Source: Phyto melanocephala (lineage: Eukaryota > Arthropoda > Insecta > Diptera > Rhinophoridae). Taken from it: a stretch of 64,000 bases of DNA. The stretch spans positions 176,855,235 to 176,919,234 of the forward strand of contig OW799233.1 in the NCBI GenBank assembly GCA_941918925.1. The letters are read 5' to 3'. Position numbers and translations under genes: made by a program. Shown here in pieces: positions 1,890 to 59,750 of this stretch. Each line of letters begins with the position of its first letter. Positions within the stretch are counted from its first letter, which is position 1. Under the pieces are notes generated by a model, which was given only the letters and a program-made list of their open reading frames with translations, had not been told where the DNA came from and searched no databases.

Positions 1890-4800
1890 TTATTGTTTTA
1901 TGTCCTTTGCGTGGTATACTCCGATTATTTTCCCCTGTAGATCTTCTAGCTCGTAAAAACAATTACCTACCGGACGAACTATGCGACATTTAAGAAACTT
2001 CTTTCCCATTTTCGCGTTATATAACTTACTGGAGTCGCTGAGGGTGAAATTGCGTCGAAAAACTTCTTGACCTGGACGAAATTTAATTTTACGCGCGCGT
2101 TTATTATACACTTTAGCGCGAAGTGAATAACTTTTTGCCAAATTTTTACGAATTTTATCGTGTATAAGTGCGTTTCTAGACGGTTTCGGTAAGAAGTTCA
2201 TCTCAGCGTCCTCCAGAAGTTCGAGTTTCTTCGCCAATTGGTAAACGCTTCCGTGTGTGATCATATTCGTCCCAAACAAAGCGAAATAGGGAGTCATACC
2301 AATCGATGTGTGCACCGATGACCTGAGAGCACACTCTATCTCTGAGAGATGGTTATCCCAATCTCTCTGGTCACTCTTTAAGTATGATCTTATAGCTGCT
2401 AATATCGATTGGTTGACTCTCTCAGACGCATTGGCTGGAGGCGAATATATTGCCGTTTTCATGTGTTTTACGCCAAACAGTTTTACCATTTCTCCAAATT
2501 CTTTCGAAACAAATTGGCTGCCGTTGTCAGATAAAATAATCTCAGGTACGCCAAATTTGTGGAAGACTTCTGAAACAAGAAATCTCACTACGTTTTTGTT
2601 GTTGGCTTTGGCCATAGCTTTAAGCAAAACAAATTTGGAGAAATGATCTAACACTATGAAAATAAAGCAATTACCAGACTTTGACCGAACGTATGGACCT
2701 AAAAAGTCTATATAAATTTTTTGAAATGGACGATTTATTTGCGTAACCTCTTCGCTCATCGGGGGTCTCAAAATTTGGTTCGAAGGCTTATTTTCTTTAC
2801 AGATTTCACACTGTTGAACGAAATCTCTGACTTGGATTGTCATATGCGGCCAATAAAAATATTCTCTTATACGTTTAAGAGTTTTATGAAAACCTCTATG
2901 TCCAGCTGTTGGTGGATTATGAGCTTGAACGATAAGCTCTCTACGTAGCTGAGCTGGGACCCAGATTTTCCACGAAAAGTCTTCGGACAAAATATCGCCA
3001 TTATAATGTTAGGTACGCTTATAAATGTAATCACCTTCAATTTTCAAATCTGGTAACTGATCTTTACTTTCATTAATAGCATCCCGAAGTTCCGAATATT
3101 CATCCGATGAAAAAGCCGGTGAGTTAAGGTCGATAAGACGTGACACTTCGCTAACGATTTCATCCATGGCATACCGCGAGAGAGTGTCTGGCACCACGTT
3201 TTTACTCCCTTGACGATGTTCAATATCAAACGAATACGATTGCAGTAACAAGCTCCATCGGGCTAGCCTACCACTGAGCTCCTTATTGGACATCAGCCAT
3301 TTTAAACTCGAGTGGTCTGTTATGACCGTGAATGGCATGAGCTCGATGTATGCCCTAAACTTTTTAATGGCCATTACTACTGCCAGACACTCCCGCTCTG
3401 TCACCGAATAATTTCGTTGCGCGGGCGTTAATTTCTGCGACATATACGCAATAGGGTGTTCACCGTCGGTTTCGTCTTTTTGAAAAAGAACCGCACCGAT
3501 ACCGATGTCAGACGCGTCACATTGGACAAAAAACGTTTTCGAAAAATCTGGATGGCGTAACACGGGACTCGAGGTAAGGGCTTGTTTTAATTTGTCAAAC
3601 GACTTTTTCGCTTCATCCGTAAAATTAAAAGTTTTCGATTTTTTAAGCGTCTCAAAAACTGGTGTAGCTATAGTCGCGTAATCTTTAATAAAGCGGCGAT
3701 ACCAGCCGGTAGTCCCCATAAATCCGCGTACTTGTCTAGGTGTCTTTGGATAAGGAAATTCGAGTATCGAAGATATTTTTGCAGGATCAGGCTTTAGTCT
3801 GCCTCCTCCTACTATATATCCAAGATACCGAAGTTCCTTAAAACAAAACTTTGATTTTTCAACATTTATTGTCAATGTAGCATTAGAAAGTAAATCGGCA
3901 ACTCGCTCTAGTGTACTAACATGAGTTTGAAAATCTGGGGTGACTATGAGTAAATCGTCTAGATACACAAAAACTCGATCGCGCAAGTCGGAAGGAATCA
4001 CTTTATCCATTAAACGGCATAACCTTTGAGCTGCATTACACAACCCAAAAGGCATGACCGTGAAATGATATAGTGGTCTCCCCGGCACTGTAAAAGCAGT
4101 TTTTTCGCGACTTTGTATATCTAGTGGAATTTGCCAGAATGCATCTTTTAAATCCACACTAGATATATAATACGTGTCATTTAGTCTGCTGAGCAATCCC
4201 TCTATATGCGGAAGTGGATAAGCGTCTTTAACTGTGAGTGCATTGAGCTTTCGTGCGTCTAAACAAAGCCTGTTCTTCGTACCTTTACGCACTAACGTCA
4301 CTGGATTATTCCAGGGGCTTTGACTCGTCTCAATAACACCCATAGCAAGCATTCGATCCAATTCAGCATACATGAGTTTTTGCACAGCAGGAGAAACTGG
4401 ATAATGTCTCTGCTTTACAGGCACTGCGTCTTGCGTATCTATGCTATGTGTTTCTAAATCGGTTTTCCCAAGTCCCTTTTCAACAAAAGATGGAAAATTT
4501 GCGATAGCTGCTTTCAATAACTTTCTGTTCTGATCACAAAGTACATGCATTAAAGGATTTGTTGAGCTTTCACTCGCCTCCTCACTCCAAAGCATATCAT
4601 TTGTGGTCAAGCAATCTAAATTGACAATAAGTTTAAATTTTTTCATAAAATCGACACCTAGAAATAACGCTCGCTTCAAGGTCGGTACAAGATAAAAAGT
4701 AATATTACTTTCTATTCTATTAAATTTGATTTTTGCTATAAACCGTCCTTGAATATTATGGGACCTACCGTCGGCAGTTTTTACCGTTGCCGGAAACTTA

Positions 4801-5285
4801 CGAATTTCTACACCCGCTTTTTCCGCGATCTCAAAACAACCTTCGCCGAGAACCGTTACGGTTGCACCGCTATCTAGAAGACCTTCAATCTCTACCCCAT
4901 TGATAGAGATACGGGTATATAACCGTGTATCATCACCTTCGTACAACGATACGTTGGCAATCTCACGCCTAAGCTCTTTTCTTTTTCTATAGCGTTCTCT
5001 AGCTTTTTCTATCCGCGTCTTCTTAAAAATCCTGTTTCTAACCTCCCTATACTCTCTGATTCTTTCATGCAATGGTTTTATTTCCCTAATTTTAAATTCT
5101 TCTGCCTTTTCACTTATCCTAACTTTATTATTATTATTATTAACTAAGATTCTAACGACCCGATTATTCTCCTTTTCCTCTAGGCTGTTAAAATCCTCCA
5201 GTGTGTTTACTGGGCGGTGGGATTCGGACGCTGTTCCCCAGTCATTAACGGGTCCGGCCTCCGGTTTCCCGTACACCTTGGACAT
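1890..5285 (-). pseudogene. pol: gypsy pol, broken by one stop codon
   Basis: From 5285 the frame encodes an aspartic protease (LLDSGATVTVLG), a reverse transcriptase with YLDD (VFVYLDDLLIV), and RNase H (QCDASDIGIGAVLF, ITDHSSLKW). It stops at TAA 3011-3009. The same frame reopens at once and continues to 1890 with an integrase: an HHCC finger (H-H then CEIC), the DDE triad in YIDFLGP, LSDNGSQF and NASERVN, and a basic C-terminal domain. Because the two halves are in one frame with no indel, the break is a single nonsense change. The gag-side start at 5285 is an ATG, but translation probably enters by -1 frameshift from gag. Confidence 0.9.
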
Positions 5286-6772
5286 TTGGGCGTAACAGTG
5301 TTATCCATACCACATTTAAAGCAAAACAGACGCCTTGTTGGTGATGGACAGTCCATGTAACCATGGCCAGGTTTTCTGCAATTCCAGCAGACGTATTTTG
5401 TGGTAGTGGCTAAAGCATCAACATCTACGCTTACGTTTTCATTTTCATTCCATTCCAATTCATGGACACGCTGATGGAACTGACGTTGATTGTATGCTTG
5501 TCGCTGTGTCTGCAAAAGCGACTCTGCCTTTTTGCATTCCTGGCGAAAATGACTCAGGCCAAACATACGAATTGGGAAAACTAATTGCGCCATTGAGGTA
5601 CGTAAATTTGTCTTCATTATATCTATTAATTCCACCTCACTTATCGGTTTGTTTTGTTGGCTATGTAGTCTTAGTACCGCATTATAATAGTCCTCAAAAG
5701 ACTCCTGAGGCATTTGGCGACGGTCCATTATTTGCCGATGAATTTCGATATCGCTGTTAAAGCGCCTAAAACGGCTCACAATGGCATGTTTTAATTCATC
5801 CCATGAGTTTGTGGGCTGGAGACGCCTCTGCATCCAGTACCACTCAAGTGCATCACCGGACAACAGTTGATGAAAATGTCTCATCACTTCAGACCAACTG
5901 CTACCATAGTCTTTACGCATTTCCTCGACACGAAAAACGAATTCCTGCGCACCCATTGTTTTTGAGCTGCCGTCAAAATTAACACCCCATTTATCCAACC
6001 CTGGCCTACGATGAGTATCGAAATTATACGCCGGTGGATAAAACGGTGCTTGTACGTCGTGTTGTTCAAACGTACTGTTGTTTGCGTCGAGCGGCTGAAA
6101 ATGTGAAGCGTTGTGGCTATGCTGTGAGCGGTTATACTGCTGTTGATGAAACGCTTGAGGTAGTGGATTTAAATATGGTCTCCCCGGTGGCTGTTGATTA
6201 ACCATATTGGGTTGTTGTCTTATTGATGGTATAGGCTGCATATTGACATTTGCCATTGGTGGCTGATCCCTCACCATTTGTGCTGGTTGCCTTTCAGTAT
6301 TAATCGGCAGAGGTTGATTTGACGGTACCGGTACAACCGAACCAGCAGATAACGAACGAATACTATCTGCTACAATACGAGGTACTATTTCACGTAAACG
6401 TTCTTCCATTGAACGCATTATTTCCGTATGCCTTAGGCCTACAGTAGACTCCACCAAATTCTGCAAGTCTGGTACTACGGGTCTAGCTGGTAGTTGATTT
6501 GTAGCCAAACTGCTACGGAATTCTTGGCGTACATTTCTGGCCGTCAGACTGCTATATTCCGGTGACGTAATGCTACCTTCAGCTTCCACTATAGGATTTG
6601 GTAAAGCATACTGTGCGTTTATTTGGGCTGAATTAGCACTATGTGGTGTGTACGTTACTGTTGTTGTAGTTGTTGTTATAGGTGGTAAACTAGCGTTATT
6701 TCCACCGAGGACTGGCCTAGAGGAAGTAGATGCGGAATCGCTGTTCATTTTACTTGCCCTAGTCTGTACCAT
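5207..6772 (-). CDS. gag: gypsy Gag polyprotein
   Basis: I take the ATG at 6772 (MVQTRASK) as the start. The ORF is open 15 codons further upstream, but with only a TTG there. The product is about 521 residues. The N-terminal half is Gln/Asn/Pro-rich and low in complexity. The middle (about residues 260-450) matches a Ty3/gypsy capsid fold, the family from which Arc derives (WGVNFDGSSKT, FRVEEMRKDYG, GDALEWYWMQRR, ESFEDYYNAVLRL). The C-terminus carries zinc knuckles: CWNCRKPGHGYMDC, then CFKCGMDNTVTPKCPRC. It would package element RNA into particles. The frame is uninterrupted, unlike pol. Confidence 0.88.
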   Translation of the reverse strand: MVQTRASKMNSDSASTSSRPVLGGNNASLPPITTTTTTVTYTPHSANSAQINAQYALPNPIVEAEGSITSPEYSSLTARNVRQEFRSSLATNQLPARPVVPDLQNLVESTVGLRHTEIMRSMEERLREIVPRIVADSIRSLSAGSVVPVPSNQPLPINTERQPAQMVRDQPPMANVNMQPIPSIRQQPNMVNQQPPGRPYLNPLPQAFHQQQYNRSQHSHNASHFQPLDANNSTFEQHDVQAPFYPPAYNFDTHRRPGLDKWGVNFDGSSKTMGAQEFVFRVEEMRKDYGSSWSEVMRHFHQLLSGDALEWYWMQRRLQPTNSWDELKHAIVSRFRRFNSDIEIHRQIMDRRQMPQESFEDYYNAVLRLHSQQNKPISEVELIDIMKTNLRTSMAQLVFPIRMFGLSHFRQECKKAESLLQTQRQAYNQRQFHQRVHELEWNENENVSVDVDALATTTKYVCWNCRKPGHGYMDCPSPTRRLFCFKCGMDNTVTPKCPRCTGNRRPDPLMTGEQRPNPTAQ

Positions 6773-7816
6773 GCCATCCAAAAAAAATAATAATAAATAA
6801 TCCAAAAAGAATAACAAAATCTAAACTAACTAATAAAAAACAAAATTATAAAAAAAAATTGGAATAATAAAAACTAAATAATAAAACAAAAAAAAAAAAA
6901 TAAAAGATTAAAAAAATATCAAAAAAAAATTTAATAATAATAAAAACTACAAAATAAAAAGAAATTGAAAAATAATAAAAAAATGAAAAATAATAAAAAA
7001 TTAAAAATAATAAAAACCTTAATAAAAAAAACGAAATACTGTATAAATTAGCAAATAATTATCAAATATCAATAATTTTCAATATAATTATCAGTTCAAA
7101 AGAAAATAAGAAAAACAAAATTTCATTAAACCTGTATAAAAAATTAAAACCAGGCTGAGAAATAATTGATTTTATTAAATTTAAGTATTTTGCAAAAAAA
7201 AAAAAAAAATTCATACATATACACACAATTATTCAAAAATATAGATTTTCTTCGATTTCAAGATTGCAAGAAAGTGAGATATTTTTCTAAACTGTAGGTC
7301 AAATTACTGGCTAGAGAAATTAAATACCAAAACGTTTAATATTCTAACTTCTTTTATTTTCTAGGTATCAAAACTGAGGATTGAGTTGAAAAGACTGGTA
7401 GCTAAAACTTCGCCAAACTAGAAATCTTCAGCAGATCGACAATGAAACTTCTTGTGAAAGCGTTTGTTTCACGACTTATCCACTGAAAAATTCCAGCTTG
7501 GTGAGTATAACTTTGGGCTATTGTAATCTACTTTAAATTAATGGTTTCTTGCTTGTTACTCTGTTTTCGAAAACACTGTAGCTAACATTACTCAAATATT
7601 AATTTTGTAGTAATGTGACTTACAAGTGCTCTCGAAACCCGAGAAATAGCAAGCCTTTCTATTTCTCATCCAGCAGGATCATCTCCTTAACGTCGCAAAT
7701 ACTAAACAACCTTGATGGATTGGTTTTAGTATGACTTACGCTAAAAAGATGACCTCTACTCAACGACAAACAAAAAGTAAAAAAAACGAAACTGAAAAAG
7801 GAAACCCGAATTTCGG
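6773..7816 (-). other. gypsy element leader (5' UTR)
   Basis: This lies between the putative primer-binding site and the gag ATG on the minus strand. Positions 6780-7210 are almost pure A/T with long A runs; 7260-7816 is more complex but has no convincing ORF. Confidence 0.5.
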
Positions 7817-7840: not shown

Positions 7841-9299
7841 TGTCAAGGGTCTCTTGGGCCAAAGCCCGGTGAATGACTGATGGCAACGCTAAAAATAAAA
7901 CAAGCTGGAGTTGTCCGGCTACTCCGGTAGAGCGCGTGAGGTTCGCCATCAAGCCATCCACAAGACACTGAGCAAAAAAAAGTAAGTAAAACAAAACAAA
8001 ACTTCAACCCTCAGTTTTGTGTCCCATGGTTCTCTTATGTTTACGCTTTGGTATTCAACTTCCTAGCCTGCAGCTGGTGGAATGCTGCATTGGCCTGCCC
8101 ACCCCTAACCATGGCAAATCTTCGGCCATTTATCTACTGATTTGCCCCTACTTATATTTGGCCCTACAGCTTAGATTTTCTCACTTACCTTTCTTTCCAG
8201 ATTATTCCATCGTGGGATATTTACACACCGTTCATGACATTTGTCACGTCTCGTCTAAAGTCCGTCGTCCAGAAAAAACACAAGGTCTCCCCAATATAGG
8301 ATTTACGATGACGATATGCGCCAGAGATGAAACTAATGAGCTCACTATTTTCTTCCGACACCAACCAAATGCCAACTTTGGGCCACACAAAAAGGTAGTA
8401 TCTAAACACCTAAAATTATTTTACCGACTTGTATTTTTCCTATTACCGTCCGAAGCTGTCTGCAGTCTGGTGTGATACCTCTGGAGTTGGGAGCCTCTGG
8501 TGTGTGTGCAAATCCTATTACGGTGTTGTGATGGAGTAATGTAACCAGGATGTGTTGGTGGTATTTTAATGCGGTGTTTATTTAATAAAACTGTATTCAC
8601 GTTGTTTTAAAAATTTATGTGTGAGGGTGTGTATGTATTTATATATGATTTTGTTTATCTTTGTTAAAAAACCAAAAATCAAAATTTCTTTACTTTTCAC
8701 TTAATAAAAAAACTTGTGTGTATTTGCATGTATTGTATTTATTGTATTTATTTAAATTTAATCTTATTAATTTAAATAAAAATATATATCATTTAACAAC
8801 AGAAAAATTAACAAATATGTTTTCTTTCTGTTCTCTTCTTTTATTTTTAAATTAAATTAACTTTCTTTGTCTATTAATTAAAAATTGTATGTTTTTCAAA
8901 TATATAACTTTCTTTTCATTTCCTTATATTTGACACAGCGAAAATTAAAAACTTTCTTTAATTAATTTTTCTTTCACCACTCGCACCTTGTTTTTTCTCG
9001 CTTCACGAAACTTTTTTCTTTTCCTTCTCTCAAACTTCAAAAAAAAACTCCCCCAACTTCAAATTTCCCTTCAACTTTTTTCCCGCCTTTTTCAACATTT
9101 TCCGACATCTTTTCTTAACATACTTTTACCTCATCAGCTGAACTTTACATCTCATCAAAATTTCACTCTTCTTCTTCCACTTTCATTCACTACCTTAACC
9201 CTAAAACGAGCCACATGACAAATAATAATAATAATTTGTGTTTTATTTAAATTCAACATCGGTCCTTAAAATTCAATCGCCCTTTATAACTTCGATATG
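7841..9299. other. Probable 5' LTR/flank of the gypsy element; no gene
   Basis: Beyond the primer-binding site, 7841-8540 has clearly higher GC than its surroundings, as expected for LTR sequence. The outer LTR edge could not be fixed, and no copy was seen on the 3' side. From 8560 to 9230 the sequence is AT-rich and then C/T-rich (8980-9200) with no recognisable gene. The 152-codon plus-strand ORF at 8017-8475 resembles nothing known to me. Confidence 0.35.
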
Positions 9300-13339: not shown

Positions 13340-14115
13340 TTATACCCTTCACACAGTGAAAAAGGGTATATATAGGTTTGTCATTCCGTGTGAAATTTCT
13401 ACAATTTTCATTTCCGACCCCATAAAGTATATATTTTCTGAAAGCTTATGAATAGAGGAGTCGATTAAGCCCTGACCGTCTGTCCGTCTGTCCGTCTGTC
13501 CGTCTGACCGTCTGTCCGTGTGTATGTTGAAATCAACTTTTTGAAGCCCCCCGACATAGGTTGGACCCGGGTAAGGTATTAAAATATCAGAAATATTCGG
13601 GAGTAGATCGGTATTGAAAATCAGAAACATCGGTACATAAACAACTGAGATATGAGCAAAAACCCACGACCACCTCGATTTTCTTTTCATAAAAACAACA
13701 TTACAACAACAACATACATACATACAAACGTGTATACTGGTTAGAGAAAACGTGGCATCGAATCCCAGCTGAGGCAAAAAAATTTTTTTTTAAATTTTTT
13801 TAAAATTTTTTTTTTTAATTTTTTTTTTATTTTTTATTTAATATATTATATATATTTTTATTATTATTTTTTTTTATTTTTTTTTTTTAATTTTTTTTTT
13901 ATTTTTTTTTTGTTTTATATATATTATATATGTATATAATAATTTTTTTTTTTTAATTTTTTTTTAAAATTTTTTTTTTTAAATTTTTTTTTTATTTTTT
14001 ATTTTTTTTTTGTTTTTTTTAACATACATACGTGAATTTACTGTTATTGCATGACTACACGTTGTGAAGGGTATATAAGATTCGGCACGGCCGAATATAG
14101 CGCTTTTACTTGTTA
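13340..14115 (+). mobile_element. Helentron-associated (HINE/mini-me-like) element, full length
   Basis: The left end is TATACCCTTCACACAGTG. Then come a TA-rich core (AAAGTATATATTTTCTGAAA), a (GTCTGTCC)n tract at 13487-13520, a conserved block with CACGACCACCTCGATTTTCT, and a long A/T tract. The right end has a hairpin, ATTCGGCACGGCCGAAT, followed by a short tail ending ACTTGTT. A subterminal 3' hairpin without terminal inverted repeats fits helitron/helentron derivatives. The copy is almost identical to 32851-33622. The 142-codon minus-strand ORF inside is read through by-chance open sequence. Confidence 0.8.
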
Positions 14116-24187: not shown

Positions 24188-27100
24188 TTACAATTTCAAT
24201 TCTTCGGTGTCTGGTAGTTTGGCAAAGAATGATTGGACACGTTCTTCTGTTACGGCTTCTAATGTTTTTGGATTCCATTGGGGCTTTTGATCTTTATCGA
24301 TAAGTAGGGCTCGTACACCTTCTTTGAAGTCACTATTTTCTAAATGGCGCACGACCAAGCGATATTCCATGTTGAGACATTGTGGCAATGATAACTTAGC
24401 TCCCAATTCCAATTGACGAAATGTTACTTTTAATGAGGTGGGTGACATTTTTAATAAAATCTGTAAGTAAAGAACGAGCAGTTAATCAAAATAATAATTT
24501 TACAAAATGTGAGGTTCCTAATATGAAAATTTTAATGAACATTCTAATAATGGGATATTTATCAGGTATACGCATTAAAAAAAAAACGAAAAAATAAACA
24601 AGAGTGCTATATTCGGTCATGCCGAATCTGATAATACCCTTCACCATCATGTACATAGTATAATCCCACATCGTAGCTTAATCTATATTTCCTCGATTTT
24701 AAATTTGTACGTAGTTATCTGTATTCTACTAGTCAAGCCATTTCACTTGATACCCATATTAATGGGGTTAAAAAAATTAGTTCCGCAATTTTGTTTTAGA
24801 CACCACCTTGGACTTTAAATTTTTTAATTTAATTGTATTCTACTGGTTAAGCCCTTAGTGCTTATATTGCGCAAGTCAAGTCCTTTCAGATGATACTTTC
24901 GCAGTTGTCTAGAAATTGATTTTAGTTTGTAAATTTTTGAAATTTATGTATATTTTTCAAAAAAATTTTTTCCCTATAGTAGTAGTAGTAGTTTTATTTA
25001 ATCTTAGTGAATTAATTCCTAGATTAAAAAGAATTTTTACAGGCATTGGCTTCATAGGCCATCAGCTCTACTTGTAAATACAATTAGGTTTATAATAAAA
25101 TTAATTAAATTTTTTTTATACCCTTCACCTGTGGTGCACAAGGGCATATATAGCTTTGTCATTCCGTTTGTAGTTTCTACAATTTTCATTTCCGACCCCA
25201 TAAAGTATATATTTTCTGAAAGCTTATGAATAGAGGAGTCGATTAAGCCCTGACCGTCTGTCCGTCTGTCCGTGTGTTGGTTAAAATCAACTTTTAGAAG
25301 CAACTATATGTTCCTCAGATATGTATATGGTATCAATCTCTTGGAAATATCCAGGAATGAATCGCTATTGAAATTCAGCACAATCGCCCCATAACATAAT
25401 ATTTACATGTGAAAAACATACCAAAAAAAAAAAATATCAAAAATAAGAAAAAAATCTACAAAAAAAAAAATTAAAAAAAAATTTAATAAAATTTTTTTAA
25501 AAATTTTTCTAAAAATTTTTCTAAAAAAATTTTTTAAAAAAATTTAAAAAAAATAATAAAATATAAATAATATATTAAATAAAATAAAATAAAATTTTTT
25601 TGGCTCAGCTGGGATTCGATGCCACATTTATTCTAACGTGTACGTATGCACGTATTTTATATGGGATGAATGGTGATACAAACAATTGTTATTGCATGAC
25701 TACACGTTGTGAAGGGTATATAAGATTCGGCACGGCCGAATATAGCACTGTTACTTGTTTTATTAAATTTTGAGTTTTGTACTTTTTGCGAAGTTATAAA
25801 TCTTATTGATATTGATGGTAGTTGGCTTCTTTAGAAGGTCTAAGGCCGGATTATTGCCAAAAATTATTTGTCTTGGATTTAGGAAAATTGGGCAGGTGGT
25901 CAGGATGTGGTTTATTGTGAGAGGACAGATGCATCTATGGCAAATTGGTTGAACTGCGGGTTTCTTTAGAATCCATTCGTGTGAGAAGGTGGTGTGACCG
26001 AGACGTAAACTCGAGAATGTCCGGTAAGGGCTTTATTTAAAAGTTTTTAAGAATATCTCTACAAATAGTAGCAAAGGTACCTATAAATTATTCTATGGCT
26101 GAAAATGTTTAATTTTGGTGGTAAAAATATGGGAAAAAAACAGAGGCAGTCGTGTTTATTTGCTCATATCTCAGAAAGTTATGGGGAAATTGTTCTGAAT
26201 TTATATAGCGGTTCATTCCCGGATATTTCCAAAAGATTAATATTATACACAGATCTAAGGAACATATGGTTCCTTCTTAAAGTTGATTTCAAACAACACA
26301 CGGACAGACGGACAGACTGACACCCCTTCATAAGCTTTCAGAAAATATACTTTATATACTTTATGGGGTCGGAAATGAAAATTGTAGAAATTACAAACGG
26401 AATGACAAAGCTATATACCCTTGTGCACCACAGGTGAAGGCTATAAATATAATAACAGATTATTTAAAAGAAAAAATCATTTTTTGAATATATCTATGTA
26501 CTACATACTTACATATGTATGTATACTCTTGATATGTGTAATTTTTATTTCGAAATAAAATAAAATTATATATCTATATAAATAAAAGAGTAACGTGACT
26601 GGCTGACTGATTCATCATCGCACAGCCCAAACGCAAAGAGCTAGAGACATGAAATTTGGACAATCGGTTCCTCTTTCGATGTATAGCTCCACTAAGAAAG
26701 GATTTTTGAAAATTCGTACTTTAAGGGGGTAAAAAAGGGTAAAAACGGGTAAAATCGGTAATCTTATATCTACTAAACTAAAAACGATACAAATAAAATT
26801 GAAAAAGAATTGTAATTTGCACAAAATGTAAGCTGACAGGTGTCTGGCCTTTTTTTGAATTTTCAACCCCTAAGGGGAAAAAACGCGTAAAAACTGTAAT
26901 TTGGTACTTTTTTGGTGCCCTATGTAACTTCCAAACACATATAGCTAGAAAAAAAATTTAAACTGTTTTAAGTAGTCCGCAAAAAAATATTAATAGGAAT
27001 TCGGCAATTTTTTCAAATTCGCATGTATAAGGGGTAAAAATTTTCCCTTTTTTCGGTACTTTTTTTAAAAGAAACTTTTCTAATATTATTCAATGGGACA

Positions 27101-30100
27101 AAATTTGATCATTATTATTGCCTAATAGGATATGGACAAATATCAAGGTGAAATTTTTGGAAACCTTTTTGGGGACAAAAAAGGTACCAAAAAGGGGAAA
27201 ATTTCATAAAATGTATGTAATTCCTAATTTGACGGCCAATTTTCACAAAATTTATAATTGGGATTTCACCAGACATAAAAAATTATGTAATTTAGTAAAA
27301 ATTTAAACACATTCAAAAGAGTTTGGTACTTTTTAGAACATAATTACTTTTTTGCAAAAAAGAGTAGATTTACTGACTTTAAATCATGTCTATTAAAATA
27401 TTTTGTTACATAGATATTTGAAGATTTTAAACTTGGAATTTGGAACTTGGACCAAAAATGTACTTTTTCGCTTTTCTATGGTACTTTTTGTATTTTCAAC
27501 GTTTGCGAAGCTAGAATTTTGAAATTAGTGGCAATTGATACAAGGTGAGACTGAAAATGTTATGGTCAACCAAAAAGGTACTTTTTTGAATTTTAATGGT
27601 ACTTTTTGTATTTTCTACGTTTATGAAGGTAGGATTGTACAATCAAGGACTATTGATTCCAAGTGAGATTGAAAATGTTATAGGTTATCAAAAAGGTACT
27701 TTTTTGAATTTCTATGGCACTTTTTGTATTTTCAACGTTTATGACGGTAGGATTGTACAATCAAGGACTATTGAATCCAGGTGAGACTAAAAATGTTATG
27801 GGCGACCAAAACGGTACTTTTTTGAATTTGTGTGGTACTTTTTGTATTTTCAACGTTTGCGAAGCTAGAATTTTGAAATTAGTGACTATTGATACAAGGT
27901 GAGACTAAAAATGCTATGGGCGACCAAAAAGATACTTTGTTGAATTTTTATGGTACTTTTTGTATTTTCAACGTTTGTGAAGCTAATATTTTGATACTAT
28001 TGATACAAGGTGAGACAGAAAATGTTATGGTCGACCAAAAGGGTACTTTTTGAATTTTTATAGTACTTTTTGTATTTTCCACGTTTGCGAAGCTATAATT
28101 TCGAAATTAGTGGCTATTAATACGAGGTGATACTGAAAATGTTATGGGCGACCAAAAAAGTACTTTTTTAAATTTTTTATTTTATTTATTTATATATAAT
28201 TCATCGAGCCCTTGTGGGCCATATATGATTAATATAAATGTTATAATTATGCAATGAAATAAAAATATGTATATATAGACAAATGAAGTAAATATATGAA
28301 ATATACAAGAGAAGAAAAAAAAATAACAATTTAATAATAGCAAAATAAGGCCATATTTATCAGTACTAAACAGCAGTTAATAATCTATCTATCTGAATTT
28401 TTATGGTTCTTTTTGTATTTTCAATCTTAGTGAAGCTAAAATTTCGAAATTAGTGACACAAGTGATACAAGGTAAGACTGAAAATGTTTTGAGCGACCAA
28501 AAAAGTACTTTTTGTATTTTCAACATTTGTGAAGCTAGAATTCGAAATTAGTGACACAAGTGATACAAGATGAGACTGAAAATGTTTTGAGCAACCAAAA
28601 AGGTACTTTTTGATTTTTTTTTACTTCTTGTACTTTCAACGTTTGCGAATTAGAACTTCGAAATAAGTGACTTTTAATACAAGGTAAGACTGACAATGTT
28701 ATGGGCGACCAAAAAGGATCTTTGTGAATTTTTATTTTACTTTTTGTGTGTTATACGTTTATAAAGATAATATTGGTTCAAATTGAGAATAAAAATGATA
28801 AGGGCAAAACAAAAGGTGTTTTCTTTAGGATTTTTATTTCACTCTTTGCCTTTTCGCATTTTTATTGTACTTTTTGTATTATTACGTTTGTAAACATAGA
28901 TTCTTAAAATAAGTGATTTTTATCCAAATTCTAACTCTAAATGTTATGAACGACAAAAAATTCTTATTTTTGTATACATAGAATTCTGAAAGTAGGTACT
29001 AATAATCCAAGTTATCTTTGAAGATTATAGTGAAGGACAAAATGTTATTTTTTTAAGTCATTTTTGCATATTGTGAATTTAAAATATATATTTTAAATAT
29101 ATATATATACTAGTATTTAATCAGCTGAATGCGTTTTTTTATATACAATTTATAGTTACCAAATTTTTTTTAAATGTTTCTGCAATTTTATTTATTTTTT
29201 TATTTTTATTCTACAATCAATTTCAGTTGGTTTAAAACATAAATAAAACATAACCGTAAATAAAAAGTTTTTTGCATTAGTTTTTTTTTTTAATTATTAA
29301 AATTAATGAAGAAAATAAAAAAATTGTGTGACAGATTATGTATATAAAAAATGCGTTTTTTAATTGTTGCGATGTACATATACATCATATGAATATGACT
29401 TGCATCCACATAAGGTAATAGCACATAGGTGATAAAGAGAGACACATTTTTAGACTGAAATATTTTTTTAATATATGGAGTTTGTTATATGTATGGTAGG
29501 ACACAAAAAAATTGTCATCTAGGCTGAAACCACTACCTGCTAAGAGTAATTTATATGCAACGACGAATTGTATATTAGGGATTGAAAAGTTAAACGTTTA
29601 ATTTAATAAAATTCGATTAAAAAAGGAATATATGTATGTATATTTGGACAAAACCCTAATTAATAATGGTAAACATTGTACTAATTTACCTCCTTAGTAT
29701 TATTAGCCCATCCACTGCCATCGCTCTTAAGATTCTCAATAATTTCTTCGACGCTTTCACCGGTAAAACATTTATTGATTTGATCCAAATGTGGTTCCAA
29801 AGTAAATGGTTTTGGCGACGGGTTATTGAATTTGTTTAATATTTCGGAAACTTCATCGGCATCAGGACAATTTAAAAGTGCCGTTTCTAATTCAGCAATT
29901 TTAGAACTTTCACAATAGTGAGTTGCAATGCCGGCTTTTAAAACATCTTCACCCTTTAAGCGTACACCGGTAAGTCCCAAATACAGACCAAGTTTGCCTT
30001 GCAGACGTGGTAGAAAATATGATCCACCGACATCAGGAAATAGTCCAATAGCTGTTTCAGGCATGGCAAACAAAGTTCGTTCGGTTGCTACGCGATATTT

Positions 30101-38982: not shown

Positions 38983-39850
38983 TCTATATATATAAAAGTG
39001 AAACTCTGTGTGTGTGTGTGTGTTAGCTATAGACTCCGAAACTGTAAAACCGATCGGGCTCAAACTTTGGTAAGTTGTTGTACACATACCAGGGCGTGTT
39101 TATGGGTGAAAAAAAGTGGGCGTAGCCACGCCCATAAAAAATTAGTTATCAGTTTTAGCTACTTGCACTTGACCGATTTTTCTGAAACTTTGCACACATA
39201 TCGAGCTGTCATGACTAAATAATTTCGTGATAAGAAAAGTGGGCGGGGCCACGCCCCTAAAAAGTTTTAATTTTGAGGTACTTGCACTGGACCGATTTTT
39301 CTGAAACTTTGCACACATATTGAGTTGTCATGGCTTTATAATTTCGTGATTGAAAAAGTGGGCAGGGCCACGCCCATAAAAAATTAGTTATCAGTTTTAG
39401 CTACTTGCACTGGACCGAATTTTCTGAAACTTTGCAAACATACTGAGCTGTCATGACTTTACACTTTCATCATTAGAAAAGTGGGCAGTGCCACGCCCAT
39501 TAAAAAAAAGGTATCATTTTGAGGTACTTGCACTGGACCGATTTTTCTGAAACTTTGCACACATATTGAGTTGTCATGACTATACAGTTTCGTATTTAGA
39601 AAAGTGGGCAGTGCCACGCCCATAAAAAAAGGTATCATTTTGAGGTACTTACACTGGACCGATTTTTCTGAAACTTTGCACACTTATTGAGCTGTCATGA
39701 CTATACAGTTTTGTAATTAGAAAAGTGGGCAGTGCCACGCTCATAAAGAAAAAGTTATAGTTTTTAGCCTTGCACTTGATATTCGATTAAAATTTAGAAT
39801 GCGATTAAAATTCATGAAGGGGCGTAGCAACGCGCGCCGGGATTGGCTAG
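38983..39850 (+). mobile_element. Helitron D1, with internal about 120-bp satellites
   Basis: It starts TCTATATATATAAAAGTG and ends GGCTAG. Internally a unit of about 120 bp (GACCGATTTTTCTGAAACTT ... GTGGGCAGTGCCACGCCCAT) repeats about six times. A GCGTAGCAACGCGCGCC hairpin precedes the CTAG end. No ORF survives; it is non-autonomous. Confidence 0.8.
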
Positions 39851-40672
39851 TCTATATATATAAAAGTGAAACTCTGTATGTGTGTGTGTTAGCTATAGAC
39901 TCCGAAACCGTAAAACCGATCGGGCTCAAACTTTGGTAAGTTGTTGTACACATACCAGGGAGTGTTTATGGGTGAAAAAAGTGGGCGGGGCTACGCCCAT
40001 AAAAAATTAGTTATCAGTTTTAGCTACTTTCACTGACCGATTTTTCTGAAACTCTGCACACATATCGAGCTGTCATGACTAAAAAATTTTGTGATAAGAA
40101 AAGTGGGCGGGGCCACGCCCCTAAAAAAGTTTAAATTTTGAGGTACTTGCACTGGACCGATTTTTTGAAAACTTTGCACACATGGGCAGTGCCACGCCCA
40201 TTCAAAAAAAAGGTATCATTTTGAGGTACTTGCACTGGACCGATTTTTCTGAAACTTTGCACACATATTGAGTTATCATGACTATACAGTTTCGTATTTA
40301 GAAAAGTGGGCAGTACCACGCCCATAAAAAAGGTATCATTTCGAGGTACTTACACTGGACCAATTTTTCTGAAACTTTGCACACATATTGAGCTGTCATT
40401 ACTATATAATTTCGTGATTAGAAAAGTGGGCAGTGCTAGGCCCATTAAAAAAGTTATAATTTTAAGATACTTTCACTGGACGGACTTTTCTGAAACTTTG
40501 CACACTTATTGAGCTGTCATTACTATACAGTTTCGTAATTAGAAAAGTGGGCAGTGCCACGCTCATAAAGAAAAAGTTATAGTTTTTAGCTTTGCACTTG
40601 ATATTTGATTAAAATTTAGAATGCGATTAAAATTCATGAAGGGGCGTAGCAACGCGCGCCGGGATTTTCTAG
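39851..40672 (+). mobile_element. Helitron D2, directly head-to-tail with D1
   Basis: Its first base follows the CTAG of D1 with no spacer. It has the same ends, satellites and 3' hairpin as D1. Confidence 0.8.
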
Positions 40673-40866
40673 TACAATATATATATAACATAAAATATAT
40701 GTGTATATGTATAACACAAAACATTATAATGAAAAAAAAAAAAATAACTAAAATAAAATACAGGAAAGTGTGCTATATTCGGGCGAGCCGTATCTTATAA
40801 TTCCCTAACATTATACTAGTCAAGTTAGTTTTTTGTTTCAGAGGCCATCTTGCATTTTACACATCT

Positions 40867-41486
40867 TCTATATATATAAAAGTGAAACTCTGTGTGTGTG
40901 TGTTAGCTATAGACTCCGAAACTGTAAAACCGATCGGGCTGAAACTTTGGTAAGTTGTTGTACACATACCAGGGAGTGTTTATGGGTGGAAAAATGTGGG
41001 CGGGACCACGCCCATAAAAATTAGTTATCATTTTTAGCTACTTGCACTTGACCGATTTTTCTGAAACTTTGCACACATATTGAGCTGTCATAACTACAAA
41101 ATTTCGTGATAAGAAAAGTGGGCGGGGCCACGCCCATAAAAAAGTTTTAATTTTGAGGTACTTGCACTGGACCGATTTTTCTGAAACTTTGCACACATAT
41201 TGAGCTGGCATGACTTTATAATTTCGTGATTATAAAAATGGGCAGGGCCACGCCCATAAAAAAAAGTTATAATTTTGAGGTATTTGCACTGGACCGATTT
41301 TTCTGAAACTTTGCACACATATTGAGCTGTCATGACTTTACGATTTCGTGATTAGAAAAGTGGGCAATGCCACGCCCATAAGAAATAGGTTATAATATTT
41401 AGCTTTTTGCACTTGATATTCAATTAAAATTCAGAATGCATTTTTATTCTTTAATTGGCGTAGAAACGCGCGCCAGGCTTTTCTAG
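40867..41486 (+). mobile_element. Helitron D3
   Basis: TCTATATATATAAAAGTG start, CTAG end at 41483-41486, four to five satellite units. Between D2 and D3, at about 40765-40830, is a HINE 5'/hairpin scrap (GTGTGCTATATTCGGGCG). Confidence 0.78.
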
Positions 41487-41610
41487 TATAAATATATATA
41501 TATAAAATTCACGTGTCACAGTGTTTGTCACCAAACTCCTCCGAAACGGCTGAACCGATTTCAATGAAATTTTGCATACACATTCTATAGGTCTTAGAAT
41601 AGGTTTATAA

Positions 41611-41646
<36 letters not shown>

Positions 41647-42575
41647 TATATTTATATTCCTTAATGAAGTGGGCGTGGCACATCCCATACAAAGTGAATT
41701 TTTAACATCATATATCTTGATTACTATGAAAGGGAGAGCTTTGAAAATTCGTGCGACATCATTTGTTGTTACTATTTGTTGCCGAACCGAAAATGGGCAG
41801 GATCGCATAAGTGGGCGCGGTAGCTCCCATACAAAGTGAATTTTTAACATCATATATCTTGAGTACTATCACAGGGAGAGCTTTTTTAATTTGTGCGGTA
41901 CCGCCCGTGCAAACTTTGTACACATATTGAGCTGTCATGACTTTATAATTTCGTGATTAGAAAAGTGGGAGAGGCCACGCCCATAAAAATGTTATAATCT
42001 TGAGGTACTTGCACTGGACCGATTTTTCTGAAATTTTGCACACATATTGAGCTGTCATGACTATATAATTTGGTGATTAGAAAAGTGGGCAGGGCCACGC
42101 CTATAAGAAAAGTTATAATTTTCAGCTACTTGAACTTCATCAATTTTTCTGAAACTTTGCACGCACATATTGAGCTCTCATGATTATACAATTTCGTGAT
42201 TAGAAAAGTGGGCAGTGCCACGCCCATAAGAAATATGTTATCATTTTTAGCTACTTGCACTAGATCGATTTTTCTGAAACTGTGCACACATATTGAGTTG
42301 TCATGAGTATACATTTTCTTGATTAGAAAAGTGGCAGTGTCACGCCCATAAGAAAAGTTATTATATTCAGCTACTTAAACTTCACCGATTTTTCTAAAAC
42401 TTTGCACATATGTTGAGGTGTCATGACTATACAGTTTTGTGATTAGAAAAGTAGGCAGTGCCACGCCCATTAAAAAAAGTTATAAAATTTACCTTTTTGC
42501 ACTTGATATTCAATTAAAATTCATAATGCATTTTTATTCATCAAGGGGCGTAGCAAAGCGCGCGGGCTTTTCTAG
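41487..42575 (+). mobile_element. Helitron D4, divergent 5' part
   Basis: The 3' 700 bp match D1-D3 and end CTAG at 42572-42575. The 5' part differs: CACGTGTCACAGTGTTTGTC, a (TA)n tract at 41617-41647, and two copies of CATACAAAGTGAATTTTTAA. It may be two elements joined. Confidence 0.65.
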
Positions 42576-55655: not shown

Positions 55656-56876
55656 ATGAGTGAAGATTTTAAGCTGCCCAAACGTTTACGTAAACGTACA
55701 AGGGAAGTAAAACGTAAAGCCCGACCAGAATTGGACAAAGAAGGTTGGACAGCCTTACGATTTGCTGAACGCTTTGAATCATTTTGTGAGGTCAAAGACA
55801 ATGTTGAGCGCATACAAGAGCGTGATTTTAGCTGCCAAGAATTTATAGAACATTATGAGGAACCATACAAGCCGGTGGTGATTGAAGGATGCCAGGAAGG
55901 TTGGCAAGCTTTGGAGAAATGGACACTTGCACGACTGGCTAAAAAGTACCGCAATCAAAAGTTTAAATGCGGTGAAGACAACGAGGGCTATAGTGTTAAA
56001 ATGAAAATGAAATATTACATAGAGTATATGCAGTCGACCAAAGATGACAGTCCCTTATACATTTTTGATAGTAGCTTTGGGGAGCATCATCGTCGTCGTA
56101 AACTGCTGGAGGACTATGTGGTGCCACAATATTTCCGTGATGATTTGTTTAAGTTCTGCGGGGAAGAGCGAAGGCCACCGTATCGTTGGTTTGTCATGGG
56201 TCCTGCTAGATCTGGAACTGGTATACATATAGATCCTTTAGGCACTAGTGCTTGGAATGCTTTAATAAGTGGCCACAAACGTTGGTGTCTATTTCCCACA
56301 CAAACACCTAAGGAATTGTTAAAGGTTCCCTCTAATTTGGGTGGAAAACAAAGGGATGAAGCCATTACCTGGTTCAGTACCGTCTATCCGCGTACCAAGC
56401 AATTGGATTGGCCCAAAGAATATGCCCCATTAGAGATTCTACAAAAACCGGGAGAAACAGTTTTTGTACCCGGTGGTTGGTGGCATGTTGTTTTAAACAT
56501 AGATGACACTATAGCAATTACGCAAAACTTTTGTAGTCGCACCAACTTCCCAATTGTATGGCATAAAACAGTACGAGGTCGTCCGAAACTCTCACGTAAA
56601 TGGTTGCGAGTGTTACGCGAAAAAGAACCTCGATTAGCAAAAGTGGCAGAGAATATAAATATCGATCAAAGTACAGGCTTTGCTTCGGACAGTTCTAGCA
56701 ATTCCAGTTCATCTTCGTCGAGTTCGTCATCGTCGGGCAGCGACACTGATGCAGAGGGCAATAAAAGCGACGACGATTCCTGTTCCTCGAATACAGATAG
56801 TGGCCAAGAAAGTTTAACTGCCAAAAAGAAAAAGAAGCGCCGTATGGGTGGCGGCAACATGTCATCAAACTCATGA
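55656..56876 (+). CDS. JMJD6: JmjC-domain hydroxylase JMJD6 (phosphatidylserine receptor homolog)
   Basis: A single open exon of 406 residues starts at [14 protein letters not shown]. The N-terminus is basic, a likely nuclear signal. The JmjC domain (about residues 140-290) has the iron ligands HxD in [15 protein letters not shown] and the distal His in [11 protein letters not shown], with the family signatures [13 protein letters not shown] and HKRWCLFP. The C-terminus has the poly-Ser stretch typical of JMJD6 ([12 protein letters not shown]) and a basic KKKKKRR tail. JMJD6 is an Fe(II)/2-oxoglutarate lysyl hydroxylase acting on splicing factors; the older role as phosphatidylserine receptor is not supported for the human protein. 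No intron was needed to close the frame, although other introns may lie in the 5' UTR. The fly ortholog is known as PSR. Confidence 0.96.
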
Positions 56877-57821: not shown

Positions 57822-58335
57822 TTTATACCCTTCACCTGTGGTGCACAAGCTTTGTCATTCCGTTTGTAATTTCTACAATTTTCATTTCTGAAAGCTTATG
57901 AATAGAGGAGTCGATTAAGCCCTGACCGGCTGTCCGTCTGCCCGTGTGTTGGTTGAAATCAACCTTTAGAAGCAACTATATGTTCCTCAGATCTGTAAAT
58001 GGTATCAATCTCTTGGAAATATCCGGGAATGAATCGCTATTGAAATTCAGCACAATCGCCCTATAACTTTCCGAGATATAACCAAAAAACCACGACCACC
58101 TCGTTTCTTTTCACAATTAAAACCACAACATACATATATACTTGTTAGAGTAAACGTAGATCGAATCCCAGCTGGGCCAAAAAAATTTTATTTAATTTTT
58201 TATTTTATATAATAAATTTTAATGTGAACCATTTTTTATTTTGGCTTAAGTTCATTTGTTCTTTTTATTTAATTTTATAATTCAAATTAAATTAAATTGT
58301 AACCATTTTAGGAATATTCTTTCTAAAAATTATTT

Positions 58336-58403
58336 CCGATATTAGCCGAGTGGAATACATTTTCGAAATCAGCTACGATTTCATCATCAGCACTCTTTAT
58401 CGG
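58336..58403 (-). ncRNA. Hammerhead ribozyme motif, copy 1
   Basis: The minus strand has the same 68 nt as copy 3 (59305-59372). See that entry for the fold. Confidence 0.72.
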
Positions 58404-58880
58404 TATACTACTATGTAACTTAAAATTCCTATTTATGTTACAATTGAATGAAATTTAAATTAGTGAATCTTAGTATTAATTTTCATATTTTGTTGAATAT
58501 TTAATTTCACCTATCAAATGACAATTCATAATTCAACATGTTCATATTCTTCTTTATTCGTAATACATTTTCGTTATGCTTTCAATATCCATCCTTTGGC
58601 TGGAATTATTGAAAACAAGGTTGTATTTACATTTTTCATTTATATAAGTCTATCTAGGTGATACACACTGAACAATGAATTCTTGAATGTCATTAACACC
58701 GTGCCATGTGTGTTATAATTATATATTTATATTTTATTCGAACTTTTTTCTATATATTAAATTTTAATGTGAACCATTTTTTATTTTGGCTTAAGTTCAT
58801 TTGTTCTTTTTATTTAATTTTATAATTCAAATTAAATTAAATTGTAACCATTTTAGGAATATTCTTTCTAAAAATTATTT

Positions 58881-58948
58881 CCGATATTAGCCGAGTGGAA
58901 TACATTTTCGAAATCAGCTACGATTTCATCATCAGCACTCTTTATCGG
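58881..58948 (-). ncRNA. Hammerhead ribozyme motif, copy 2
   Basis: The minus strand is identical over 68 nt to copies 1 and 3. It lies in the second repeat unit, direct to copy 1 and inverted to copy 3. Confidence 0.72.
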
Positions 58949-59304
58949 TATACTACTATGTAACTTAAAATTCCTATTTATGTTACAATTGAATGAAATT
59001 TGAATTAGTGAATCTTAGTATTAATTTTCATATTTTGTTGAATATTTAATTTCACCTATCAAATGACAATTCATAATTCAACATGTTCATATTCTTCTTT
59101 ATTCGTAATACATGGATGGATATTGAAAGCATAACGAAAATGTATTACGAATAAAGAAGAATATGAACATGTTGAATTATGAATTGTCATTTGATAGGTG
59201 AAATTAAATATTCAACAAAATATGAAAATTAATACTAAGATTCACTAATTTAAATTTCATTCAATTGTAACATAAATAGGAATTTTAAGTTACATAGTAG
59301 TATA

Positions 59305-59372
59305 CCGATAAAGAGTGCTGATGATGAAATCGTAGCTGATTTCGAAAATGTATTCCACTCGGCTAATATCGG
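59305..59372 (+). ncRNA. Hammerhead ribozyme motif, copy 3
   Basis: Helix I has two parts, CCGAT/ATCGG and GAGTG/CACTC, separated by an internal loop. The core CTGATGA follows helix I. Helix II is GAAATC/GATTTC with a six-base loop, then the core GAAA. Helix III is only about 3 bp with a two-base loop (AATGTATT counted from the last A of GAAA). The cleavage site would be TTC, between 59355 and 59356. One base is extra: a T between CTGATGA and helix II. A very short, nearly palindromic helix III is known from hammerheads of Penelope-like elements, which work as dimers. Confidence 0.75.
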
Positions 59373-59750
59373 AAATAATTTTTAGAAAGAATATTCCTAA
59401 AATGGTTACAATTTAATTTAATTTAAATTATAAAATTAAATAAAAAGAACAAATGAACTTAAGCCAAAATAAAAAATGGTTCACATTAAAATTTAATATA
59501 TAGAAAAAAGTTCGAATAAAATATAAATATATTTTATATAATATTTATATATTTTTTTTAATTTTTTAAAAAATTTTTTTTTATGGTTTTATGTTTTTGT
59601 TTTTAATATATTTTTTTGGAAACATGTTTTTTACATGTATGTACGTATTTTATGAGATTAATGGGGATACAAACAATTGTTATTGCATGACTACACGTTG
59701 TGAAAGGTATATAAGATTCGGCACAGCCGAATATAGCACTGTTACTTGTT

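Follow-up and report, generated by a model that had tools for sequence, protein, structure and literature searches.

A probable non-autonomous Penelope-type retroelement with a type I hammerhead motif, present in high copy number in the fly Phyto melanocephala

The insertion at about 58201–59543 of the window (the whole 64,000-nucleotide stretch analysed here, from contig OW799233.1 of the rhinophorid fly Phyto melanocephala) is probably one copy of a high-copy, non-autonomous, Penelope-type retroelement that carries a type I hammerhead. Two minus-strand copies of a unit, arranged head-to-tail with a 545-bp period, meet a single plus-strand copy head-to-head (Table 1). The unit is non-coding and has a GC content of 24%; as it contains no open reading frame (ORF) for a reverse transcriptase (RT) and GIY-YIG nuclease, it is not an autonomous Penelope-like element (PLE), and it is therefore named here a non-autonomous element of PLE type. 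An earlier note, made from the letters of this DNA, had guessed at a Penelope-like element or retrozyme, and the anatomy of the copies found across the genome supports that guess.

The three identical 68-nt type I hammerhead motifs that the note had reported are present at 58336–59372. Type I hammerheads have three stems, with stem I open, and the core C3 U4 G5 A6 N7 G8 A9, G12 A13 A14, A15.1-U16.1 and H17; the window motifs contain this core, the three stems and the open stem I. All of the parts that had been claimed were found, namely a two-part stem I (outer CCGAT/ATCGG, inner GAGTG/CACTC), CTGATGA, an extra T, stem II (GAAATC/GATTTC), GAAA, a short stem III and TTC. The palindromic helix III of 3 bp stood in part: the stem is short, but 2 bp with a tetraloop is likelier than 3 bp, because the latter would leave a loop of 2 nt. 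Stem III reads AATGTATT in the window copies and AATGCATT, a perfect palindrome, in the majority of the genome matches listed (about 100 of 6101). Lunse 2017 is said to describe small dimer-cleaving hammerheads near PLEs with a diminished stem III; judged by the title of that work, the fly motifs would have PLE association and dimer cleavage in common with them, and the fly stem III may be longer.

A strict descriptor, fitted after the motif had been seen (stem II of at least 6 bp, inner stem I of at least 5 bp, short stem III of at least 3 bp), matched these three motifs alone in the window and nothing in 6000 dinucleotide shuffles (384 Mb). A permissive descriptor gave 23 matches in 6000 shuffles of the same total length and one further match in the real window, at 9137 (−) with a 49-nt stem III; we take the latter as chance, and it indicates that loose matches do arise in this way. 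The three window motifs are confirmed to be more than chance and count once, because they belong to one family; the 6101 genome matches are stronger evidence than they are. Recent copying, also proposed in the note, holds, but the perfect identity over 68 nt is not a special sign of it, because the surrounding repeats are about 97–98% alike over their whole length. For the same reason, a reading of the identity of the three motifs as selection was ruled out.

Table 1. Features of the hammerhead-bearing insertion, in window coordinates
Feature	Position	Strand	Remarks
Left 14-bp direct repeat TATTTTATATAATA	58201..58214	.	Target site duplication; outer 1–2 bases may match by chance
Unit copy 1	58208..58740	−	Ends approximate; 3′ end bounds the insertion on its left
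Hammerhead motif copy 1	58336..58403	−	CTGATGA 58390–58384; extra U 58383; predicted cleavage after C 58353
Predicted 545-nt RNA	58353..58897	−	Between cleavage sites of copies 2 and 1
AC-rich weak hairpin AACACACATGGCACGGTGTT	58695..58714	−	Near outer 3′-end (T) site; unit coordinate 527; −4.0 kcal/mol
Unit copy 2, 5′-truncated	58741..59113	−	Head-to-tail with copy 1
Hammerhead motif copy 2	58881..58948	−	Predicted cleavage after C 58898
Head-to-head junction of arms	59113..59114	.	Two truncated 5′ends meet
Unit copy 3, 5′-truncated	59114..59529	+	3′ end with tail is the right outer end
Hammerhead motif copy 3	59305..59372	+	Predicted cleavage after C 59355
A9-U10-G10.1 start codon and dead frame ATG AAA TCG TAG	59324..59335	+	Within stem II/loop II, copy 3
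Right 14-bp direct repeat	59530..59543	.	Second copy of target site duplication

The 14-bp direct repeat that flanks the insertion is weak evidence when taken alone, because the sequence is so AT-rich: such a repeat arose in 37 of 3000 shuffles and in 130 of 3000 draws of AT-rich stretch pairs. A paralogous empty site lies at about 25523–25630 (−), where the joined flanks score 145, compared with 93 for the left and 70 for the right flank alone. The left outer end was placed by eye, near unit coordinate 494; automatic alignment put it at 512, with a repeat of 7 bp alone, because the alignment ran into the duplication. The element seems to have inserted in the tail of a dispersed repeat, GAATYCCAGCTGRG with an A/T-rich tail, which was also seen near 13748, 20721, 25630, 32684, 33261 and 46368, besides 58151, in the window. 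The adjoining gene at 55659–56876 encodes JMJD6/PSR, its best named match being that of Calliphora vicina (94% identity), which points to a calyptrate fly near the blowflies. Elsewhere in the window, frames at 1890–6820 (−), named from their translation, resemble gag and pol of a Ty3/mdg4-like LTR retrotransposon, and tandem repeats occupy 27450–28747 and 39111–42485, with periods of about 98–118 bp and about 120 bp.

The genome-wide search for further copies that the note had suggested was made in the assembly of 739.75 Mb (9 contigs), where the 38-nt core had 6101 matches (3062 + 3039) at three or fewer mismatches and the reversed control none. Forty stretches were sampled from the roughly 100 listed matches, picked by core similarity and mostly from contig C1; together with the window they held 44 insertions with both ends inside the stretch, those that reach a stretch end, such as L011, being left out. 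Head-to-head arms were present in 26 of the 44, so that tandem pLTR-like units stand with an inverted arm, as they do in PLEs. While the outer 5′ ends of the 44 are scattered, the outer 3′ ends form two main clusters, S at 484–502 (peak 489) and T at 515–538 (peaks 524 and 530) in unit coordinates. These clusters are 35–41 nt apart and lie about 176 nt (S) and 211–217 nt (T) after the A of the start codon described below; eight outer 3′ ends fall outside them, besides the misplaced 512 of the window. Direct repeats of at least 12 bp flank 16 of the 44 insertions, against 6 of 1892 cross-paired flanks, and one of the repeats (L038), a 27-bp TTA run, is probably no duplication; the other 28 insertions have no repeat of that length. 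Target site duplications, another PLE trait, are about 12–16 bp long in the sampled copies.

Classed by ranges that were set after the ends had been seen (480–502 for S, 510–536 for T), the 26 head-to-head insertions comprise 17 with one end of each kind (ST), two TT (among them the window, with its misplaced left end), one SS and six that are unclassifiable. A loop-II variant served to select ten additional loci (L051 was set aside because it and L050 are one place). They contained 11 insertions, two with direct repeats of at least 12 bp and eight head-to-head, of which five were ST and three unclassifiable. Tested against 50%, the excess of ST pairs has a binomial P of 0.0026 (17/20) and of 0.00016 when the added loci are included (22/25 classifiable). 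An ST pair amounts to a 3′ tail of about 30–40 bp on one arm, the optional tail of PLEs. An association of the S/T choice with arm length was looked for and rejected (8 versus 9).

The inner ends were examined in a set of 26 that came from a looser alignment and included partly other insertions than the 26 head-to-head ones above. In 25 of this set, more than 20 nt separate the inner 5′ ends of the two arms; in the remaining one (L028) they lie within 20 nt. Twenty of the junctions fall between an 11-nt gap and a 7-nt overlap, and the six with overlaps of 25–287 nt are probably alignment artefacts of AT-rich internal palindromes. Such unequal inner ends are not those of a simple hairpin, and hairpin self-priming was rejected on this ground; together with the complementary S and T outer ends, they favour priming on both target strands.

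These features can be set beside those of known PLEs. Penelope of Adineta vaga has tandem and inverted pLTRs, target duplications of 8–10 bp or none, and an optional 31-bp tail on one inverted pLTR (PMC3846280). In PLEs, an optional tail of 30–40 bp is described as corresponding to the sequence that lies between two sites of RT start; both strands of an AT-rich target are cleaved and extended, and the RT start lies in an AC-rich stem-loop (PMC11167929). The fly family has in common with PLEs the tandem and inverted copies, the two 3′ ends some 30–40 nt apart, the AT-rich targets and the short target duplications; unlike them, it has a unit of 545 nt without an ORF, and 6101 genome matches. Two further loci (L013:3269–3439 and L026:2803–2976) belong to another element family, whose hammerhead is almost identical but whose 3′ body differs; its two members are 88% alike and are 5′-truncated within or near stem I. 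Outside this genome, the hammerhead pattern had no match in viral contigs or in genome contigs, and a flank pattern had none in viral contigs.

The extra base between CTGATGA and stem II, which the note had offered as a possible new variant, is no such thing: that idea falls with the printed hammerhead of PAc, a PLE of Anolis, which has an extra U at the same place. In the PAc template (CUGAGGA-U-GCCUGC..GUGGGC-GAAA-CG-U-C), A9, the single U that follows it and G10.1 spell AUG, and the printed sequence places C17 26 nt past this AUG, in agreement with the distance stated (PMC11167929). The extra U is therefore a known PLE arrangement, and the fly family has it in common with PAc/Poseidon of Anolis, along with the type I hammerhead; PAc differs in having ACGU alone as stem III and the core CUGAGGA, whereas the fly family has a stem III of 8 nt and the core CUGAUGA. 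A viroid hammerhead has an extra A at this place, and its change to U raised trans-cleavage 3–4-fold (PMC3705267). In the fly unit, the frame opened by the AUG stops at codon 4. The T of this loop-II stop is replaced in 11 genome matches, a count that covers otherwise exact 30-nt matches alone and none with further changes, and the longest frame so obtained is 37 aa.

The likeness of units within insertions offers another line of evidence. Stretches could be compared in 22 insertions. In 14 of these, the units resemble one another more closely than they resemble those of any other insertion in the set, and the median divergence over all 22 is 1.00% inside versus 2.58% between. When arm is compared with arm alone, the values are 1.57% within and 3.22% between (17 insertions), and the window insertion differs by 1.35% inside versus 1.76% from its closest other. 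In the remaining eight, the units are at least as close to those of some other insertion, and inside L010 they differ by 10.84%; later mutation has blurred the old copies. Inside each of L020, L021 and L028, the full units differ on average by 0.00–0.16%, also between arms; the three loci differ from one another by 0.70% (minimum 0.55%) and from L011 by 6.3–6.7%. The 41 full units came from four loci alone, and their divergence between loci, 4.87%, is mostly due to the array L011 and is 0.70% without it. Many of the differences inside L020 and L021 concern the length of A runs; the long-A unit that stands second from the centre is the same in the two arms of L020, one of which could be a copy of the other, whereas the two variant units of L028 are confined to a single arm. 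The array L011 (G000 C2:38571000–38580900), in which the 545-bp unit is repeated in tandem across the whole 9.9-kb stretch, is heterogeneous (4.26% divergence). The simplest reading of these comparisons, which we hold with moderate confidence, is that each insertion may have been made from one short template, perhaps a circle processed by the ribozyme; unequal exchange or conversion could also have made the units alike.

The covariance search with Rfam hammerhead models that the note had proposed did not recover the motif. With Rfam 15, nothing in the window reached gathering score; at E ≤ 10, no hammerhead was reported for 58150–59600 or for the surroundings of one further genome copy. Nineteen further loci, a set without L011 and L029–L061, likewise had nothing at gathering score. 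This negative result for the family comes from searches run without a known PLE hammerhead as a positive control. Sub-threshold matches in 58150–59600 were chance snoRNAs and miRNA and other models fitted to the central palindrome; the miRNA matches were rejected as below gathering score and produced by that palindrome. In the monomer, the hammerhead fold (−8.4; −11.5 if stem III is left out) is less stable than the lowest-energy fold, at −14.9. The same is true of the dimer, with −26.6 for the hammerhead form and −37.4 for the best fold.

Core and pair counts were made on the 107 of 108 extracted hammerheads that have the same length. Outside L011 the core is intact in 85 of 89 copies, from loci picked by core similarity and with many copies being units of the same arrays; in L011 it is intact in 10 of 18. 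Pairing outside L011 shows one cell changed on both sides and 28 broken, all in stem I, with stem II unbroken, whereas L011 has none changed on both sides and 28 broken (11 in stem II, 17 in stem I). In 107 copies, then, a single cell is changed on both sides. The note had named uncompensated breaks in helices I and II as a refuting observation, but in a family that is young and whose copies are mostly dead such breaks speak neither for nor against the ribozyme. The hammerhead varies by 5.1% in L011 versus 2.0% for the rest of the unit, and by 1.4% versus 2.4% over all loci together, a comparison biased by the choice of loci. We lean slightly towards the predicted hammerhead being active in vivo.

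No autonomous partner came to light. A profile search of the genome with PF01541 (GIY-YIG), run without a PLE positive control, had one match, at L060:1402–2441, which from its frame looks like host SLX1. A pattern for an RT motif, likewise used without a PLE positive control, had 48 matches in the genome versus 43 for the control; the one match examined had no frame resembling reverse transcriptase. Simple text motifs matched no frame in loci L001–L059 or in the window.

An ordinary animal non-LTR retrozyme, moved by a LINE or another enzyme and resembling PLEs by convergence, is an unlikely alternative. The fly family does have much in common with such retrozymes: a non-coding, AT-rich tandem unit, found in dimers and longer arrays, a type I hammerhead and an expected circular RNA intermediate, and its stem III can be read as the 2 bp with a tetraloop, and its duplications fit the length of more than 4 bp, reported for invertebrate retrozymes (PMC7229834). 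Its unit, however, is larger, 545 nt against monomers of 170–400 nt, and the head-to-head arms, the two clusters of 3′ ends and the extra U that forms the AUG of a relict start codon are PLE traits. The two readings overlap, because PLEs have been proposed as the enzyme source for animal retrozymes (PMC7229834). That the hammerhead arose by chance in a DNA transposon of foldback or MITE-like type, or in a satellite that grew through unequal exchange, is very improbable. Inverted arms, richness in A+T and one pure tandem stretch (L011) would suit such an origin, and exchange could also make the units of one place alike, but the inner ends of the arms are unequal (1 of 26 within 20 nt), the outer ends behave as one RNA-like 3′ end in two forms while the 5′ ends are scattered, the number of units varies while the ends stay constant, and the strict descriptor's lack of any match in 384 Mb of shuffles speaks against a chance hammerhead.

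A different alternative is compatible with the PLE-type reading and competes with its ribozyme step alone, namely that the hammerhead is a relict, kept by enzyme binding or by recent spread, without cleavage in vivo. We give this an appreciable chance, if one below even. The PAc hammerhead cleaves in the presence of its protein, which it needs, yet its mutants left insertion in vitro unchanged, and none of the reads stopped at the cut site (PMC11167929). The RNA copied in the fly insertions had likewise been read through uncut hammerheads, the stems show no covariation, and the array L011 decays. Against this stand the largely intact cores outside L011, with the bias in choice of loci and arrays noted above, and the likeness of units within many insertions, most easily explained by a unit-length or circular RNA.

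Returning to the PLE-type element with its ribozyme, its cycle might run as follows. Tandem copies would be transcribed, and the ribozyme would cut the transcript into unit-length RNAs of 545 nt, probably better as dimers formed through the short palindromic stem III. These RNAs may then circularise, or serve repeatedly as one template in some other way, a step to which the likeness of units within insertions lends moderate support. A Penelope-type enzyme, presumably supplied in trans, would then nick AT-rich DNA, and copying of the RNA would start at one of two sites, about 176 or 211–217 nt past the relict start codon, where the observed ends lie. As the end structure suggests, both target strands would serve as primers, each arm running inward over one or several units, and the two truncated 5′ ends would be joined, leaving a duplication of about 12–16 bp. 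The extra U of the ribozyme, the same base at the same place as in PAc, may be the middle base of an ancestral start codon. More tentatively, and we regard this as doubtful, the family may link PLEs and retrozymes: the start-codon hammerhead of a PLE would have become a non-coding, circle-making unit, and a two-headed enzyme complex would start at S on one target strand and at T on the other, on the same RNA circle. Such a double start would account for the one S and one T end in 22 of 25 classifiable palindromic insertions.

PLE structure (PMC3846280) and retrozymes (PMC7229834, PMC7761336) have already been described; the family itself is new, and its best name is a non-autonomous PLE-type retroelement with retrozyme-like units. 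In the literature searched, a weak test of absence, we found no paper on hammerheads in blowflies, and a term search of a C. vicina repeat survey met no mention of Penelope (PMC3630058). The route of PLE integration and the role of PLE hammerheads are described as open (PMC3846280, PMC7761336, PMC11167929). Whether integration proceeds by hairpin self-priming or by priming on the two target strands could be decided from the end points, duplications and arms of this family, which a chromosome-scale fly genome offers in thousands of matches. That units are alike within many insertions lends partial support, at the level of the genome, to a single short template per insertion, a prediction of the retrozyme model. 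Should the fly element be moved by PLE machinery, the idea that animal retrozymes are mobilised by PLEs would gain support.
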